64,000 nt of DNA. Origin: Vicinamibacterales bacterium (GTDB lineage: Bacteria; Acidobacteriota; Vicinamibacteria; Vicinamibacterales; Fen-181). How positions within the stretch are numbered: position 1 is the stretch's first letter; every line of letters begins with the position of its first letter. The stretch spans positions 248,001 through 312,000 of the forward strand of contig DASXVO010000035.1 in the NCBI GenBank assembly GCA_036504215.1. Reading direction: 5' to 3'. Positions 20,069 through 28,078 of the stretch are shown piece by piece. The position numbers and the translations under genes are program-made. The notes below the pieces were generated by a model. It was not told the origin of the DNA and did not search any database. It was given only the letters and a program-made list of their open reading frames with translations.

Positions 20069-20410
20069 TCAGACCTTCAGCGAGGCCAGTGTTGCCTCGA
20101 GCACAGCCACCGCAGCGTGGAGGGGTTCGACCGGCGGCAGCGGCGTGCCGGCGGCCGCGAGGATCCTGGCCTGGGTCTCGACTTCGCCGCCGGCGTCGGT
20201 GAGCGAAGGAAAACCAAATGTCGCCCCGCCACCTTTGAGCGTATGCGCCTCACGGATGAGCGTGGTGAGCCCTGGGATCGGCTCTGCCGCGATTGCCAGC
20301 CGGTCCGCTTCGGCGCGGATGGTGGCCACCCGGTCGGTCGCCGTCTCCAGGAATTCGACCCGCATCGAGGCCAGTAGCGCGGCCATCTCGTCGTCGGGTT
20401 CTGGCATCAT
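20069..20410 (-). CDS. Hpt (histidine phosphotransfer) domain protein
   Basis: The 113-residue protein is a stand-alone Hpt domain with the phosphoacceptor His56 in REAHTLKGGGATFG. Such domains shuttle phosphate between receiver domains. It starts 9 bp after the ATPase-receiver gene and ends the four-gene phosphorelay operon. Adjacent ATG codons at 20410 and 20407 are both possible starts. Confidence 0.85.
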   Translation of the reverse strand: MMPEPDDEMAALLASMRVEFLETATDRVATIRAEADRLAIAAEPIPGLTTLIREAHTLKGGGATFGFPSLTDAGGEVETQARILAAAGTPLPPVEPLHAAVAVLEATLASLKV

Positions 20411-20419
20411 GCGTGGATC

Positions 20420-22567
20420 CTACGCCGAAGACCGGTTGGCGCGCCTGAACGCCGCGCGAACGCGCGAGATCAGGACGCCTGGTTCGAACGGCTTGATCAG
20501 ATAGTCGTCGGCACCGAGCTCGAGGACCCGCCGCTCGGTGTCCGGCCCGCTCTCGGCCGTCAGCACGATCACGGGGAGCGTCGCCAGCGTCAACTCACGA
20601 CGGAGCCGGTCGATGGCCTGGAACCCGTCCATCTCCGGCATCATCAAATCGAGAACAAGCAGGTCGGGCCGTTCACGACGTGACAACTCCACCGCGTGAA
20701 GGCCGTTCTCGCCCTCGAGGACCTCGTAGCCCTCTTTCTCGAGGAGCAGCTTGACGAGCATGCGGATCATGCGGTCGTCGTCCACGATCAACACACGCTG
20801 TCTGGTGCGCGTCTGGACGCGCGCCGTGTCGTCGTCGGCCAGGACGCGGTTCACTTCCTCGATCGACGTGATGCCCTGCGCCACGGCGTCCAGGGCCACG
20901 TCGCGCATCGAACGGAAACCCGCCTGACGCATGGCCGCCCGCAGATCGACCGCCGACGCGGAGTCGCGGATCATTCGCCGCATGGCATCGTCTGGTACGA
21001 GTGCCTCGGCGACCGGCATCCGGCTGAGATACCCGGTTTGCCGGCAGCGATCGCAGCCGGAACCCGGGCGGGCCACCACGGCCTTGATGCCATGGGCCTC
21101 GCCGAGTCGCCGGGCCTCATCCGCCGGGATTGTCGCGCGGCAGTCGGGGCAGAGTCGTCGCAAAAGGCGCTGGGCGAATACCGCGTTCAGGATTTCCGAG
21201 ACGCGGAACGGTTCGAGGCCGAGGTTGAGCAGCCGGCCCACGGCCGATGGTGCGTCGATGGTGTGCAGCGAGCTGAGGACCAGGTGGCCCGTGTACGCGG
21301 CTTGCCCGGCAATCGACGCCACTTCGGAATCGCGAATCTCGCCGATCATGATGACGTTCGGGTCCTGCCGCAACACCGATCGGAGGACCTGGGTGAAACC
21401 GGTACCCGATTCCTTGTGAACGGGGATCTGGTTGATGCCCTCGAGGTATCGCTCGACGGGATCCTCGACCGTCACGATGTTCGTGCGGCCGTTCTGCAGA
21501 AGCTGAAGGCTCGCATAGAGCCCCGTCGTCTTGCCCGAAGCGGTCGGGCCCGTGAAGAGGATCAGGCCGTCCGGCCGCTTCAGCGCGCGCTTCAGTCGTT
21601 CGGACGTGGCGGCGTCGTATCCGAGATTGTCGATCGACTGGAGTTCGCTCGTGCCGTCCACGATCCGCATGACGATCTTCTCGCCATGCACGGTGGGCAA
21701 CGTCGAGAGGCGCACGTCCACGGCCCGGCCGCTCACGCGCACACGGAACGCCCCGTCCTGCGGACGGTGCTTCACGGCGATATTCGTCTTCGCCAGGATC
21801 TTGAAGCGGTTCGTGATGTGCGGCCGCGCCTCCTTCGGCAGCTCGATGACCTGCTCGAGGATGCCGCTGATGCGGTAGCGCACGGTAGCCGATCCGGCAA
21901 ACGGTTCGATGTGGATGTCGCTCGCGTGAGATTGCACGGCGCCGGCCAGGATGTGGTTGCACAGCTCGATGACCGGCGAGGCATTGACTGCGGACTGGGC
22001 GGCTTCCAGCGACTCGACCGGTGCTTCCGACTTCAGCCGGACGATCAAACGCTCGACCTCGCCCATCTTCGGGTAGTGGCGGTCGATCGCCTCGAGCACC
22101 TGGCTTCGTGCCGCGAGGAATTCTCGAGTGGTGCGGCCTGCGGCAAAACCGACGTCGCGGTCGGCTTCCATGTCGTGCGGGCGGGTGACGGCAAAGGTGA
22201 TGGTCCGGTTGTCTTCGTGGAGCGGAAGCACCGTGTGCTTTCTGGCAATCTTCTCAGGCACGAGGCGCACGGCCAGTTCGCTGACCCGCACGTCGCCGAG
22301 ATCGATCAATGGCACCCCCGTGACCTTCGACAACGCCGCGTAGCTGTCGGCCTCCGCCACGAGTCCCATTGAGACGACAACGTCCTGCAGTGCCTGCTTC
22401 TTCGCGGTGGCCTGCTCGATGGCCTGTACCAGCGCCTCACGGGTCAGCATGCGGGAGGACAGCAACTGATCGGCGAACGCCCGGACGCCACTGGGGACTC
22501 CGATGCCCAGGTCGCGTTCCAGCCGTCGCTCGGCAGGTGGTTCCGCATGCGGTTCACGGGGTGTCAT
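20420..22567 (-). CDS. PilB/GspE-type secretion ATPase fused to a C-terminal receiver domain
   Basis: The 715-residue protein has a GspE_N/MshEN domain (about 25-175), the hexameric ATPase core with Walker A GPTASGKTT (about 337-345), the Asp box VTVEDPVE, and Walker B and His boxes (VIMIGEIRD, SSLHT). A C4 zinc motif follows (CPDC about 474, CDRC about 504). A REC domain then occupies residues 590-712 with phosphoacceptor Asp near 640 and KPF at the end. ATPases of this family power type IV pili or type II secretion, but no pilin or secretin gene is nearby. An AGGAAG lies 8 bp before the ATG. Confidence 0.9.
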   Translation of the reverse strand: MTPREPHAEPPAERRLERDLGIGVPSGVRAFADQLLSSRMLTREALVQAIEQATAKKQALQDVVVSMGLVAEADSYAALSKVTGVPLIDLGDVRVSELAVRLVPEKIARKHTVLPLHEDNRTITFAVTRPHDMEADRDVGFAAGRTTREFLAARSQVLEAIDRHYPKMGEVERLIVRLKSEAPVESLEAAQSAVNASPVIELCNHILAGAVQSHASDIHIEPFAGSATVRYRISGILEQVIELPKEARPHITNRFKILAKTNIAVKHRPQDGAFRVRVSGRAVDVRLSTLPTVHGEKIVMRIVDGTSELQSIDNLGYDAATSERLKRALKRPDGLILFTGPTASGKTTGLYASLQLLQNGRTNIVTVEDPVERYLEGINQIPVHKESGTGFTQVLRSVLRQDPNVIMIGEIRDSEVASIAGQAAYTGHLVLSSLHTIDAPSAVGRLLNLGLEPFRVSEILNAVFAQRLLRRLCPDCRATIPADEARRLGEAHGIKAVVARPGSGCDRCRQTGYLSRMPVAEALVPDDAMRRMIRDSASAVDLRAAMRQAGFRSMRDVALDAVAQGITSIEEVNRVLADDDTARVQTRTRQRVLIVDDDRMIRMLVKLLLEKEGYEVLEGENGLHAVELSRRERPDLLVLDLMMPEMDGFQAIDRLRRELTLATLPVIVLTAESGPDTERRVLELGADDYLIKPFEPGVLISRVRAAFRRANRSSA

Positions 22568-22588
22568 GATGGCTTCCTGGAGCGCGGG

Positions 22589-23701
22589 TCACGACCGCAC
22601 CCTCACACGGGTGGCGGGTGCGGGGGGAATGACGAACGCAAATCGACAACCGGTCGGCGCCGAGGGCTCCACCCAGATCCGCCCGCCGTGCTGGTCCACG
22701 ATGGCACGCGAGATCGCGAGACCGAGACCGGTTCCGCCAGTGACCTGGCGGTCTTCGACGCCGACGCGGGAAAAGGGTTTGAACAGCCGGTCCACGTGTT
22801 CGCTGGGCACGCCCGGGCCGCAATCTGTCACCGAGAACTCGATGCCGTCCGGCGTCCGCGCCGCCGTCGCGCGAATTGTCGATCCGCGGGGTGAGTAGGT
22901 GATGGCATTGGAGAGCAGGTTCACGAGGACGCGAGCGAGATCATCGTGGCACCCGTGCAGCTTCGGCAGTCGGTCGTCCGAAGAGACTTCCAGCCGAACC
23001 TGCCGGTCCACCGCCTGCACCTGCATCGCCTTCACCGTCTCGTGCAGCAGTTCGGCGGGGTCCACGAGACCCGGCACCATTGTCCGCGCACCGGCCTCGA
23101 TTCTCGACAGATCCAGCAACTGGTTGACGAGCCGCACCATGCGCTCGGTGCTCTTGAGGGAGATTTCGAGCATCTCCCGGTCCTCGGCCTCGAGACGCTC
23201 GGCCGACCCGGCGAGCGCGAGCTGCAGCGCGCCGTGGATGGAGGTGAGCGGTGTGCGCAGCTCGTGGCTGGCCATCGAGACGAACTCGGTCTTGATCCGG
23301 TCGACGTCGGCCTCGGTCGTCATGTCGGTGTAGGTGAACACGCGGCCGGCAGGACGCCCGTTGGTCAGGACGGGACGGGACGACCGGCGGATCACGCGAC
23401 GCCGGGGCCTGAGGATGACGAGCCGATCCTGGTGCACGCGGTCGCCGGCGATGAAATGCGCATCGAGCCGGGCGTAGTAGGTTTCGGGGTGCTCGGAGCG
23501 CGCTGCGATGTCGAGCTGGAGCATGCCAGCCCCTTCTTCGACGAGATCTCGATGGCCGAGGCCCAGCAGGTCGGCCACGGCGGTGTTGGCCGCCGTGATC
23601 TGGCGCGACTCGTCGTACAGGAGCAAGCCGTCGCTGCTCGCGTTGAAAATCGCGGCGAGCAGGTCTCGCTGCCGCTCGGCGTCCACCTCTGTTGAGACCA
23701 C
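22589..23701 (-). CDS. PAS-domain sensor histidine kinase
   Basis: The 370-residue kinase has an N-terminal PAS domain (about 12-125), a HisKA domain with SMASHELRTPLTSI (phosphoacceptor His), and a HATPase domain with N box NLLSNAITYSP, DCGPGVP and GTGLGLAI. No membrane span or signal peptide is present, so it senses an internal signal. It begins with a GTG preceded by AGGGG, 15 bp after the response regulator. It is a likely phosphate source for the receivers in this operon. Confidence 0.9.
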   Translation of the reverse strand: MVSTEVDAERQRDLLAAIFNASSDGLLLYDESRQITAANTAVADLLGLGHRDLVEEGAGMLQLDIAARSEHPETYYARLDAHFIAGDRVHQDRLVILRPRRRVIRRSSRPVLTNGRPAGRVFTYTDMTTEADVDRIKTEFVSMASHELRTPLTSIHGALQLALAGSAERLEAEDREMLEISLKSTERMVRLVNQLLDLSRIEAGARTMVPGLVDPAELLHETVKAMQVQAVDRQVRLEVSSDDRLPKLHGCHDDLARVLVNLLSNAITYSPRGSTIRATAARTPDGIEFSVTDCGPGVPSEHVDRLFKPFSRVGVEDRQVTGGTGLGLAISRAIVDQHGGRIWVEPSAPTGCRFAFVIPPAPATRVRVRS

Positions 23702-23716
23702 GACTGTATCCCCTAC

Positions 23717-24100
23717 CTACGCGGCGACCAGACGGGAGCAGATATCACGGACCTGCTGACCCAGCGTCAGGGCGTCGAACGGCTTTTTGATGTAGCCGGC
23801 CGCACCGGCGGCAAAGCCCTCGTCCTGGTCCGACGCCTGCGTGCGCGCGCTCAGCATGATGACCGGGATGTCGGAGGTCCTCGGATTCGCCTTCAGCCGC
23901 CGGCACGCTTCGAGACCATCCATCTTCGGCATCAGACCATCGAGGATGACGAGGTCCACGAGGCCATCTTCGAGCAACTGCAGCGCCTCAGATCCGTCGC
24001 CAACCGACCGCACGGCGAAGCCCGAGCGCTTGAGGGATACCTCCGACACGCGTCGAATGAAGGGGTCGTCTTCGGCCAGCAAGATCGTTTTGACATCCAT
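23717..24100 (-). CDS. Single-domain response regulator
   Basis: The 127-residue protein is only a receiver domain, with acidic pair EDD near residue 10, phosphoacceptor Asp54 (VILDGLMPKMDG) and the KKPF lysine near 105. It has no output domain, so it should act by protein contact or as a phosphorelay intermediate, as CheY and Spo0F do. The longer open frame upstream is not supported. It is the first gene of the operon with the kinase, ATPase-receiver and Hpt genes. Confidence 0.88.
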   Translation of the reverse strand: MDVKTILLAEDDPFIRRVSEVSLKRSGFAVRSVGDGSEALQLLEDGLVDLVILDGLMPKMDGLEACRRLKANPRTSDIPVIMLSARTQASDQDEGFAAGAAGYIKKPFDALTLGQQVRDICSRLVAA

Positions 24101-24314: not shown

Positions 24315-25304
24315 TCAGCGGCCGACTGGCGAAATAGGGCCTCCGGCCCCGTGGGAAATGGAGGTGCCCGGATAGTAGTGCGCGAGGATGGCGGCCGCCG
24401 AGTCGCCTCGGGCCGCTCTCGAGGTCGCGCCTGCCTGGCAGAGGCCCACGCCATGGCCGTTGCCTCGGCCGGCGAAGGTGAAGGAGTTGCCCTGGCGGAC
24501 GAGCGAGAACAACGTGCTGCGGAGCGACTGCGGGCCGAGCGCCGCCAGCACGGCCATCCGGAAGTCGTTCCCGCGAACGATGCGGGGGCGATCCCCAACC
24601 AGACGGAGCGTCATGGCCCGGCCGGCCTCGTCCTTCCCGGCGATCTCCACCTCGCGCAGCCGGCCTTCGACCGCGAGGCGGGAATCGTCGCGCAGGATCG
24701 CCTCCAGGCGCGCGAGTGGCAGCGTCAGTTGCCACCCGGGACGTCGCGCGCAGACGGGTTCCGCCTGCGCGACGAGATACGAGTCGCCGGGGCTTCCCCA
24801 CACCTCCTCGGCCGAACTCGTGTGTCCGCCGCAGTCGGCGTGATAGACGGGTCGAACGACGGCGCCACCGGCCCGCAGGATCTGGCCCGTGGTGCGGGCG
24901 GCCGCCCGGCGCGCCAGGCGGCCGATCGCCGTTGCTGGCACGCGCTGGAATACCTGGCAGTGCGTCGCGGCGCACACATCGAAGCCCTCTGAGGCATGAC
25001 GGCCCAGGCTGGCGACCGCGAAGCTGCGGCAGATGATGGCCTGCACGTCGCGGATCTGGACGGCCGCCTCCACCGACACCGCCACCGAACCGAGTTCAGC
25101 CACCACGCAGCCGGCGACGTACTCGTCGAGCTCGATCGTCTCGATCTCGCCATCGAGCCGCACACGAAGTGTGTCGATGGGGAACGGGTGTACGGGCGGA
25201 GCCACGCGTGGCCGCCCGGGTGCGCGGGATGCGCACGCCGCGAGAAGCACGACAGCCGCCATGACCATCACCAGGGCGGGGACCAGATCGCGTCTTTTGC
25301 TCAA
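24315..25304 (-). CDS. SpoIID/LytB-domain lipoprotein
   Basis: The 329-residue protein starts with a lipoprotein signal ending VLLAAC (lipobox Cys24). The SpoIID domain then shows LDEYVAGCVVAEL, QIRDVQAIICRSFAVASLGRHASEGFDVCAATHCQVF, GHTSSAEEVWG and the terminal GRGNGHGVGLCQAGA. Homologous SpoIID proteins are lytic transglycosylases acting on stem-peptide-free glycan; in non-sporulating bacteria they are thought to remodel peptidoglycan. The only start that fits the signal peptide is a TTG at 25304. It is divergent from the NtrC-type activator. Confidence 0.82.
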   Translation of the reverse strand: MSKRRDLVPALVMVMAAVVLLAACASRAPGRPRVAPPVHPFPIDTLRVRLDGEIETIELDEYVAGCVVAELGSVAVSVEAAVQIRDVQAIICRSFAVASLGRHASEGFDVCAATHCQVFQRVPATAIGRLARRAAARTTGQILRAGGAVVRPVYHADCGGHTSSAEEVWGSPGDSYLVAQAEPVCARRPGWQLTLPLARLEAILRDDSRLAVEGRLREVEIAGKDEAGRAMTLRLVGDRPRIVRGNDFRMAVLAALGPQSLRSTLFSLVRQGNSFTFAGRGNGHGVGLCQAGATSRAARGDSAAAILAHYYPGTSISHGAGGPISPVGR

Positions 25305-25398: not shown

Positions 25399-26859
25399 AT
25401 GACTTCCCAGCATCCGATCCTGCTCCTCGTGGACGACGACGAACGGATTCTCGACGTCGTGGCCCGCTTCGCCCGACGCGCCGGCTTCGACGTCATCACC
25501 TGCGCGGGCGGCAAACAGGCGATCGACGAGCTGCGCCGTCAACCGGCCGACCTCGCCATGGTGGATCTGCGGATGCCAGACGTCAACGGTCTCGATGTCC
25601 TTCGCGCCATTCGCGAGACGGTCCCCGGGTGCGCGGTCATCCTGATGACCGGCTACGCGGGCATCGACAGCGCCGTCGAGGCGATCAAGCTGGGCGCGGT
25701 GGACTACCTCACCAAACCGTTCGACTTCGAGCGCCTGGCGCACGTGCTGGAAACGGTCCGGGACGAGGCCGAGCGGCGGCGGGGCCTGCTCGCGGCCGAA
25801 GGCGAGGTGGCACGCCGCCTGGAGTTCTGCGAGATGATCGGCCGGAGCGCGATCATGCAGGAGATCTTCAGTCTGATCCGGCGGCTCGCTCCGCACGTCC
25901 GGACGGCGTTGGTCACGGGCGAGACCGGCACGGGGAAGGAGCTCGCGGCCCGCGCGCTCCATCGGATGGGGCCGCGCCGCGACCGGCGATTTGTGGCGGT
26001 GAACTGCTCGGCGGTCGTCGAGACGCTGTTCGAGAGCGAGCTCTTCGGTCACGTCCGGGGTGCATTCACGGGGGCGACCGACACCAAGCAGGGCCTCTTC
26101 GAGCTGGCGGACGGCGGCACGCTGTTCCTCGATGAGATCGGGGAGCTGCCGTTGACCGTCCAGGCGAAGCTGCTGCGCGTGCTCGAGACGGGCGAAGTCC
26201 AGCGGGTCGGATCGCTCGAGACCCGGCGGATCGATGCTCACGTCTTCGCATCCACCAACCGCGATCTTCGCGCCGAGGTGGCCGGCAACCGCTTCCGCAG
26301 CGATCTGTTCTACCGGCTGAACGTGGTCGAACTCAGGCTGCCGCCCTTGCGGCGGCGGCCTGAGGACATTCCCTATCTCACGGCCGCCTTCGTCCGCGAG
26401 TGCTCGGGCCGATTGCACAAGCCGCTCGTCGGCTTGAGCGCGGCGGCCGAGCGCCTCCTGGCGTCTGCGCCCTGGGAGGGCAACGTCCGCGAGTTGCGGA
26501 ACGTCGTCGAGCGGGCGTGCATCCTTGCGGAAGGGGACCTCATCACCGAGAAGGATCTCGCCGTGAACGTGCCGGCGGCGGGCGACCCGCCCGTCGCGCT
26601 GGCGCCGCCGACGTTCGCCGAGGCGCTGGTCCAGGTGTCGGCCGCCGAGCGCGTGCCGGCAGATGACGATCAGGAATCGCTCGCCAGCATCGAACGCGAC
26701 CACATCATGCGCACGTTGCGGCGCGTTGGCGGCAACAAGAAGGCGGCCGCCAAGATGCTCGGTCTGAGTCGCCGCGCCCTGTACCGACGGCTCGAGCGCC
26801 ATCAACTCGACGAGACGATCACGCGCCGCAAGGGGCACGACATGGTCACCGCGGAGTAG
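25399..26859 (+). CDS. NtrC-family sigma-54-dependent response regulator
   Basis: The 486-residue protein has a receiver (Asp56), an AAA+ domain with Walker A GETGTGKE, the sigma-54 contact loop GAFTGA near residue 222 and Walker [12 protein letters not shown], and a C-terminal Fis-type HTH ([20 protein letters not shown]). It should activate sigma-54 promoters when phosphorylated. No kinase is adjacent. A sigma-54-type promoter lies 125 bp downstream of its stop, in front of the HD-GYP gene, which is an obvious target. The ATG follows TTGGAG. Confidence 0.92.
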
Positions 26860-26983: not shown

Positions 26984-26999
26984 TGGCAGACCGGTTGCA
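26984..26999 (+). promoter_or_regulatory. Sigma-54 (-24/-12) promoter
   Basis: TGGCAG-ACCGG-TTGCA matches the -24/-12 consensus, with invariant GG (26985-26986) and GC (26997-26998) exactly 12 bp apart. The predicted start near 27010 gives a 40-nt leader to the receiver/HD-GYP gene. The NtrC-type activator is encoded just upstream. Confidence 0.7.
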
Positions 27000-27049: not shown

Positions 27050-28078
27050 ATGGACCGCGTGCTCGTCGTCGACGATGAAACTGGAATTAGGGGGCTGGTG
27101 ACGCAGTGGGTGGAGTCGCTGGGCTGCACGCCAGCCGAGGCCGCGTCCGCAGAACAGGCCGTCGAAGCGATGTCGCAGACCCCATGCGACGTCGCGATCT
27201 GTGACGTCAACCTTCCCGGGCACGACGGTCTCTGGCTCGCGCGCCACATCCGGCAGTTCCACCCGGACACGGCCGTTGTTCTCGCGACTGGTATCCAGGA
27301 TATCGAATCCGCCGTTGGCGGCCTCCGGGCCGGCATCGTCGATTACCTCCTCAAGCCGTTTGGGCGCGAGCGGTTCCGCGAAGCGATGGATCGGGCGCGG
27401 CAGTGGCATCGCGCGGCGGCTGACACCCTGAGATGGCGGCAGTCGGTGGAACTCGAACTCCAAACGAGACGACGGCAGCTCAGCGATGCCGTGCTGCGGC
27501 TCGACCTGAGCAGCGACGCCGCCATTCGGGGCGCGTTGGGGCTGCTCACGATTCGAGATCGGCCGATGTTCGAACACGCGCTTCGCGTCGCGGCGATGGC
27601 GGTTGAGATCGCGAACGAAGCGAGGCTCTCGCCAACCGAGACGGCGGATCTCGAACGCGCGGCGATCGTGCACGAAGTGGCGCGGACGGTGATTCCGGAG
27701 ACGATCCTCTGGAAGCCGGGCGAACTGTCGGTGGAGGAGTGGACGATCCTCCGGCGCGAGCCGGATCTCGGGTACGAGCTGTTCTCGGGGATTCCGGCGC
27801 TCGCTTCGGCTGCCTTGGTTGTCCGCAGCATGCGGGAACGCTACGACGGCACCGGCTATCCGCAGGGGCTGGCAGGCCTCGACATCCCTGTCGGTGCGCG
27901 AATCCTGGCGCTGGCCGATTCGTATGACACGATGATCCGGCCGCGAGGACATCGCGAGCCGCTGACCCCGTCGGACGCCGCAACCGAGATTGCCGAGGGC
28001 CGTGGCACGCAGTTCGATCCGCGCGTGGCCGCCGTGCTGCTTCAGATTCTCGGCCACGCCGGTTTCGACGCTTCATGA
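27050..28078 (+). CDS. Response regulator with a degenerate HD-GYP domain
   Basis: The 342-residue protein has a receiver (Asp52, Lys102), a linker helix (about 120-150) and an HD-GYP-like domain (about 165-335). HD-GYP enzymes hydrolyse cyclic di-GMP with metal ions held by HD and HHE motifs. Here HD is His208-Glu209 (VHEVAR instead of LHDIGK), the usual K-x-HP is RREP, and HHE is MRE (261-263). DGTGYP (266-271) and ADSYD are kept. It is therefore probably inactive or altered as a phosphodiesterase and may bind partners or ligand. Transcription is probably sigma-54 dependent. Confidence 0.85.
   Translation: MDRVLVVDDETGIRGLVTQWVESLGCTPAEAASAEQAVEAMSQTPCDVAICDVNLPGHDGLWLARHIRQFHPDTAVVLATGIQDIESAVGGLRAGIVDYLLKPFGRERFREAMDRARQWHRAAADTLRWRQSVELELQTRRRQLSDAVLRLDLSSDAAIRGALGLLTIRDRPMFEHALRVAAMAVEIANEARLSPTETADLERAAIVHEVARTVIPETILWKPGELSVEEWTILRREPDLGYELFSGIPALASAALVVRSMRERYDGTGYPQGLAGLDIPVGARILALADSYDTMIRPRGHREPLTPSDAATEIAEGRGTQFDPRVAAVLLQILGHAGFDAS

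Follow-up and report, generated by a model that had tools for sequence, protein, structure and literature searches.

A pilus-type ATPase fused to a receiver domain and encoded with phosphorelay proteins in Acidobacteriota and other phyla

Introduction

Spo0-type phosphorelays comprise a kinase without a receiver, the single receiver Spo0F, the phosphotransferase Spo0B and a final receiver, Spo0A, that carries the output. Receiver proteins have also been connected to pilus extension ATPases. The Xanthomonas response regulator EmvR represses the ATPase of PilB, to which it binds (PMC11973254), PixE of Synechocystis is proposed to bind PilB1 (PMC7690835), and phosphorylation of Pseudomonas PilG is needed for PilB localisation, though the route from two-component and chemosensory systems to pilus motor ATPases is still under study (PMC12632253). 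Combinations of MshEN and receiver (REC) domains, including the MshEN-containing response regulator Bd2402, were noted by Wang et al. 2016, whose main text does not describe a T2SSE-REC fusion with Hpt or kinase neighbours (PMC5013675). No description of such a fusion with a phosphorelay was found in the open-access papers searched. An MshEN domain joined to a receiver in one protein is thus already known, as is trans action of a receiver on PilB; the in-cis, Hpt-linked form appears new within that literature.

Here we analyze a 64,000-nucleotide stretch (the window) of a 5.9-Mb Vicinamibacterales genome that encodes a PilB/GspE-type ATPase with a C-terminal receiver, hereafter GspE-REC. The likeness to EmvR, PixE and PilG is that a receiver would control a pilus extension ATPase; in those systems, however, the receiver is a separate protein, whereas in GspE-REC it lies within the motor polypeptide and is tied to an Hpt relay. 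The locus likewise recalls Spo0-type relays in its receiver-less kinase, single receiver, phosphotransferase and output-bearing final receiver, but the output is an ATPase instead of a DNA-binding domain and an Hpt protein takes the place of Spo0B.

Results

A four-gene operon contains the parts of a phosphorelay

Four complete genes on the minus strand (24100-20069), separated by gaps of 15, 21 and 9 bases, encode the following proteins and domains:

23717-24100, minus strand: stand-alone REC, Spo0F/CheY-like, 127 aa (Pfam Response_reg 2e-27)
22589-23701, minus strand: PAS-HisKA-HATPase kinase, 370 aa, GTG start (Pfam HisKA 8.6e-21, HATPase_c 2.1e-27, PAS_8/PAS_4)
20420-22567, minus strand: GspE-REC (MshEN-T2SSE-REC, PilB/GspE-type ATPase), 715 aa (Pfam T2SSE 1.4e-115, Response_reg 5.7e-31, MshEN 1.8e-20)
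20846-21985, minus strand: T2SSE ATPase domain of GspE-REC, residues 195-574 (Pfam)
20456-20794, minus strand: C-terminal receiver of GspE-REC, residues 592-704 (Pfam), phosphoacceptor Asp640
20069-20410, minus strand: Hpt phosphotransferase, 113 aa (Pfam Hpt 2.5e-10), histidine motif AHTLKGGG

An earlier note had described this operon from the DNA alone, and its coordinates and domain calls hold. Its further statements, that every phosphorelay part is present, that the apparent output is a motor-type ATPase and that no platform or secretin gene is near, are borne out as well: kinase, receiver, Hpt and terminal receiver all retain their catalytic and phosphorylatable residues, the strong T2SSE match is fused to a C-terminal Response_reg domain, and the window contains no T2SSF platform or secretin match, the nearest secretin match lying ~55 kb away on the same contig.

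The kinase carries an H-box (SHELRTPL), an N-box and a G box (GTGLGLAI), has no receiver of its own, and shows no apparent transmembrane segment; all four operon proteins are apparently soluble. The stand-alone REC, with its acidic pair, Asp, Ser and Lys all in place, is likely the intermediate phosphoacceptor, and it is 48-52% identical to the REC proteins that adjoin a histidine kinase (HK) and GspE-REC at loci L050, L053 and L054. The receiver of GspE-REC has an intact acidic pair, phosphoacceptor Asp, Thr and Lys, of which Asp, Thr and Lys are also found in its orthologues.

GspE-REC retains the motifs of extension ATPases

GspE-REC shares the fold and motifs of the PilB/GspE/MshE extension ATPases (PF00437 with PF05157). 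It contains an MshEN/N1 domain, a Walker A motif (GPTASGKT, 340-347), an Asp box (EDP, 368-370), the Walker B Glu E410, the His box (H428/H435) and the N2 arginines R286/R301, along with an invariant tetracysteine zinc motif (C473, C476, C505, C508). Aligned to PilB from the same genome, all catalytic residues are invariant except a variable Walker A Ala, and the catalytic motifs are conserved across the whole GspE-REC family. By homology, GspE-REC would be hexameric and is probably active as an ATPase. It differs from other extension ATPases in its extra C-terminal receiver, in the degenerate c-di-GMP motif of a subgroup and in its location outside a pil or gsp operon.

Among solved structures, those of Geobacter PilB are the closest (6olj, 5tsg; E 1e-118 over residues 32-580), and none of the 60 best PDB matches spans both ATPase and receiver. 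An AlphaFold model (mean pLDDT 79, pTM 0.47) has GspE, PilF and PilB as its best fold matches. The modeled receiver is confident (high pLDDT) and follows a flexible linker (577-588), but its placement relative to the ATPase is uncertain and, at this pTM, not reliable.

We scored the 12 ligand positions of the MshEN c-di-GMP motif (two RLG...L...L..Q motifs; PMC5013675, PMC7288161) by taking the best match at any place in the N-terminal region, such that values of 4-6 mean no recognizable motif. The window protein is degenerate at 4/12, whereas PilB of the same genome scores 11/12, and the median is 6 for fused and 11 for unfused proteins. A blanket rule that fusion entails loss of c-di-GMP binding is ruled out, as Desulfobacterota fusions and L019/L020 keep 10-11/12; the Desulfobacterota values indicate that loss of the motif is lineage-specific.

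The fusion is patchily distributed across phyla

Searching 149 genomes of the class revealed five further genomes with GspE-REC orthologues (L042-L046, 53-59% identity), and a confamilial genome (L167) encodes one at 55%, which gives six orthologues within the same order at 53-60% identity. Four genomes of the same genus lack the gene; two of these are rather incomplete. More distant fusions occur across Acidobacteriota and, GTDB-wide, C-terminally fused proteins are found in Gemmatimonadota, in Desulfobacterota/Myxococcota MAGs and in one Mariprofundaceae MAG; most of these relatives are MAGs. A plasmid search returned no match covering 80% of the query.

In a quick tree built on the ATPase core, 5 changes account for the 30 fused rows, compared with 27 after shuffling. 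A tree in which all fused proteins except the Mariprofundaceae one were held together beat the free tree (AU p=0.82), and these proteins are thus compatible with a single clade. Change counts and AU result together fit, rather than prove, one old origin with at least one probable second fusion (Mariprofundaceae).

Several variants of the architecture were observed. A sub-clade (L050, L051, L053, L054, L057) carries a zinc-ribbon-like insertion (CxxC) that separates the ATPase from the receiver and matches Pfam DZR in L050. Two proteins are longer: L055:3837-7385, encoded by a MAG, combines the ATPase with a degenerate receiver without Asp and TPR repeats, and L092:7752-10463 is an ATPase-receiver-GAF protein. 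An MshEN-REC protein without an ATPase (L051:1964-2944) is encoded near GspE-REC, a double-Hpt protein and an HD-domain response regulator.

Hpt genes recur beside GspE-REC

Gene neighborhoods outside the window were called with a simple codon-usage caller and checked against Pfam. They are arranged as follows:

Window: REC, HK, GspE-REC, Hpt
L044, L046: Hpt gene divergent to GspE-REC
L167 (same family): GspE-REC, REC, YfiR-like, CHASE8-HK-REC-Hpt
L168 (same phylum): GspE-REC, unknown, PAS-HK-REC-REC-Hpt
L042, L045: YfiR-like, TonB-dependent receptor, CHASE8-HK-REC-REC-Hpt
L047: Hpt protein
L051: Hpt-Hpt
L057: Hpt
L058: REC-Hpt
L053, with L054 alike: Hpt-REC
L075: PAS-HK, Hpt, GspE-REC
L079: Hpt, GspE-REC
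L072 (deltaproteobacterial MAG): GspE-REC heads CheW, CheW, MCP, CheA (two Hpt, REC), CheB
L069: start as in L072
L077: CheW next to GspE-REC

An Hpt domain lies within 4 kb at 13 of 29 fused loci versus 0 of 71 unfused loci (Fisher 1e-8, for loci that are related and not independent). Some of the sequences behind the Hpt profile came from fused loci, all of which were still detected in a leave-one-out test. Hpt domains number just 2-8 per genome in nine Acidobacteriota genomes, picked after an Hpt had been seen there, and each genome has one at its GspE-REC gene. From this rarity and the contrast between fused and unfused loci, we reject chance co-location of Hpt with GspE-REC. Sensors vary among loci while Hpt recurs, and the gene content suggests that most neighbors could supply phosphate via Hpt.

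No Hpt was found within 4 kb at L048, L049, L050 or L055, nor at any Gemmatimonadota locus (0/6). The Gemmatimonadota genes sit isolated among biosynthesis genes with no two-component neighbor, which counts against the relay reading; placement in a pilMNO operon is ruled out, the neighbors being histidine-biosynthesis and other genes. The earlier note had named a fusion not conserved in relatives as grounds for rejecting its reading, and had proposed checking the neighboring genes. The fusion is kept across phyla, albeit patchily; the neighbors are conserved in part, in that Hpt-bearing genes recur but sensor types differ and the Gemmatimonadota loci lack Hpt.

The L072 cluster resembles Pil-Chp systems but has no stand-alone PilG/PilH-like gene within the cluster and carries its receiver on the ATPase. 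CheA, CheW and MCP genes are absent beside the window locus and present at L072 and, in part, at L069 and L077.

Pilus and secretion genes lie elsewhere in the genome

The pilC/pilM-type genes that the earlier note had left to be located are on other contigs. Contig C30 has a set of type IVa pilus genes (pilB, pilT, pilC, a PilS-like kinase, an NtrC-type regulator and two pilin-like genes) and contig C28 a GspE/GspF/PilM/PilN/secretin set. A second orphan PilB/MshE-type ATPase, unfused and with an intact c-di-GMP motif (11/12), is encoded on contig C86 (G000; L171:6345-8333). PilC and GspF are the only two T2SSF platform proteins found in the genome and each adjoins its own ATPase, so that GspE-REC, if a motor, must borrow a platform.

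A T2SSF (PilC/GspF) platform is present in 22/22 GspE-REC genomes tested. In the Gemmatimonadota genome G466, a MAG that may be incomplete, a single platform gene lies near PilB and PilT, and PilB and GspE-REC are the only full-length extension-type ATPases; on this evidence, GspE-REC presumably serves the type IVa pilus. In three Patescibacteria MAGs (L081:9771-10154, L106:9783-10154, L134:9726-10133), a stand-alone receiver gene directly follows pilB and precedes pilT/pilC in the pilus operon, an arrangement that, judged by gene order, is apparently the unfused counterpart of GspE-REC.

Genes flanking the operon

An NtrC-type regulator is encoded upstream:

25399-26859, plus strand: NtrC-type regulator (REC-sigma54 AAA-HTH), with orthologues beside GspE-REC in L042 and L044

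It is 58.6% and 55.8% identical to the proteins in L042 and L044, respectively, versus 41% to the PilR-like regulator of its own genome, and may relay the same signal to transcription. A REC-HD_5 (RpfG-like) regulator (27050-28078, plus strand) has a sigma54-like TGGC-N7-TTGC site (26984-26998) just upstream, a motif no more frequent in the window than expected by chance. A SpoIID-domain protein (24315-25163, minus strand) is encoded on the operon's strand, ~210 bases upstream; no relative of it was found near the other GspE-REC loci examined.

Discussion

We lean slightly towards a reading in which a second pilus-type ATPase is the end point of a phosphorelay and is gated by it. The relay would run in four steps, from the PAS kinase to the stand-alone receiver, to the Hpt protein and on to the receiver of GspE-REC, with the PilB/GspE-type ATPase as terminal output. 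Held on a short flexible tether, the C-terminal receiver would, through its phosphorylation state, control either the hydrolysis of ATP or the docking of GspE-REC at a shared platform of the type IV pilus (or of a type II-like system), and a cytoplasmic signal would thereby switch the motor post-translationally. Both the order of phosphotransfer and the sign of its control over the ATPase are ones that we infer. That the receiver marks the end of a dedicated phosphorelay appears well supported by comparison, because the fusion crosses phyla, Hpt neighbors recur and one lineage has a chemosensory cluster; direct control of motor activity by phosphorylation is plausible by analogy. Gating is favored because of the platform data, the G466 genome and the precedents of receivers acting on PilB in trans. 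Counting against it are the lack of any pilus or secretion gene linked to the window operon, the L055 receiver without Asp and the gene's absence from four congeners.

The main rival, which we consider somewhat unlikely, is that GspE-REC is a signaling subunit and not a motor: a paralogue of PilB that would sense the state of the nucleotide or of the platform and, together with its receiver, report to or compete with PilB. PilB is able to signal independently of assembly, in the exopolysaccharide regulation of Myxococcus xanthus (PMC5544727), and it would suit this role that the fused genes stand as orphans apart from platform genes, that both platform proteins of the host genome are paired with other ATPases and that MshEN-REC exists without an ATPase, as at L051. 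A non-hydrolyzing reporter would not, however, need the catalytic motifs that are kept family-wide. We also find it improbable that the receiver serves as a regulatory tether or a phosphate sink, localizing the ATPase, as PilG and FimX do for PilB, or draining phosphate, while leaving ATPase activity unaltered. The predicted flexible linker, the report that the FimX REC domain acts in localization without Asp (PMC11656802) and the control of PilB localization by PilG phosphorylation (PMC12632253) speak for such a function, but a pure tether would have no need of Asp, Thr and Lys, which the window protein and its orthologues all retain, and EmvR shows that a receiver can influence the ATPase activity of PilB directly (PMC11973254). 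Given the tight gene spacing and the recurrent linkage of the rare Hpt to GspE-REC in unrelated arrangements, we find it very improbable that the four genes are merely co-located in a signaling-rich region and that kinase, REC and Hpt serve another output such as the adjacent NtrC-type regulator, even with orthologues of that regulator beside GspE-REC in L042 and L044 and two further response regulators upstream on the opposite strand.

Beyond gating at this locus, it is possible, if rather doubtful, that GspE-REC represents a family of pilus motors under two-component control that is old and spans several phyla. It would be a second extension ATPase, swapping with PilB at the platform according to receiver phosphorylation. 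On this view, most Acidobacteriota and the Gemmatimonadota branches would have lost c-di-GMP sensing and the Desulfobacterota branch would have retained it, with a change of input around an unchanged motor.

With signal and motor in one polypeptide and a compact relay adjoining, the link between them is testable using the four apparently soluble proteins. If phosphorylation does gate GspE-REC, phosphorelay outputs would come to include a motor ATPase, and the orphan pilB/gspE genes of several phyla would gain a role. The occurrence of the fusion beside relay or chemotaxis genes in several phyla thus offers a direct test of how signaling proteins switch a pilus motor.
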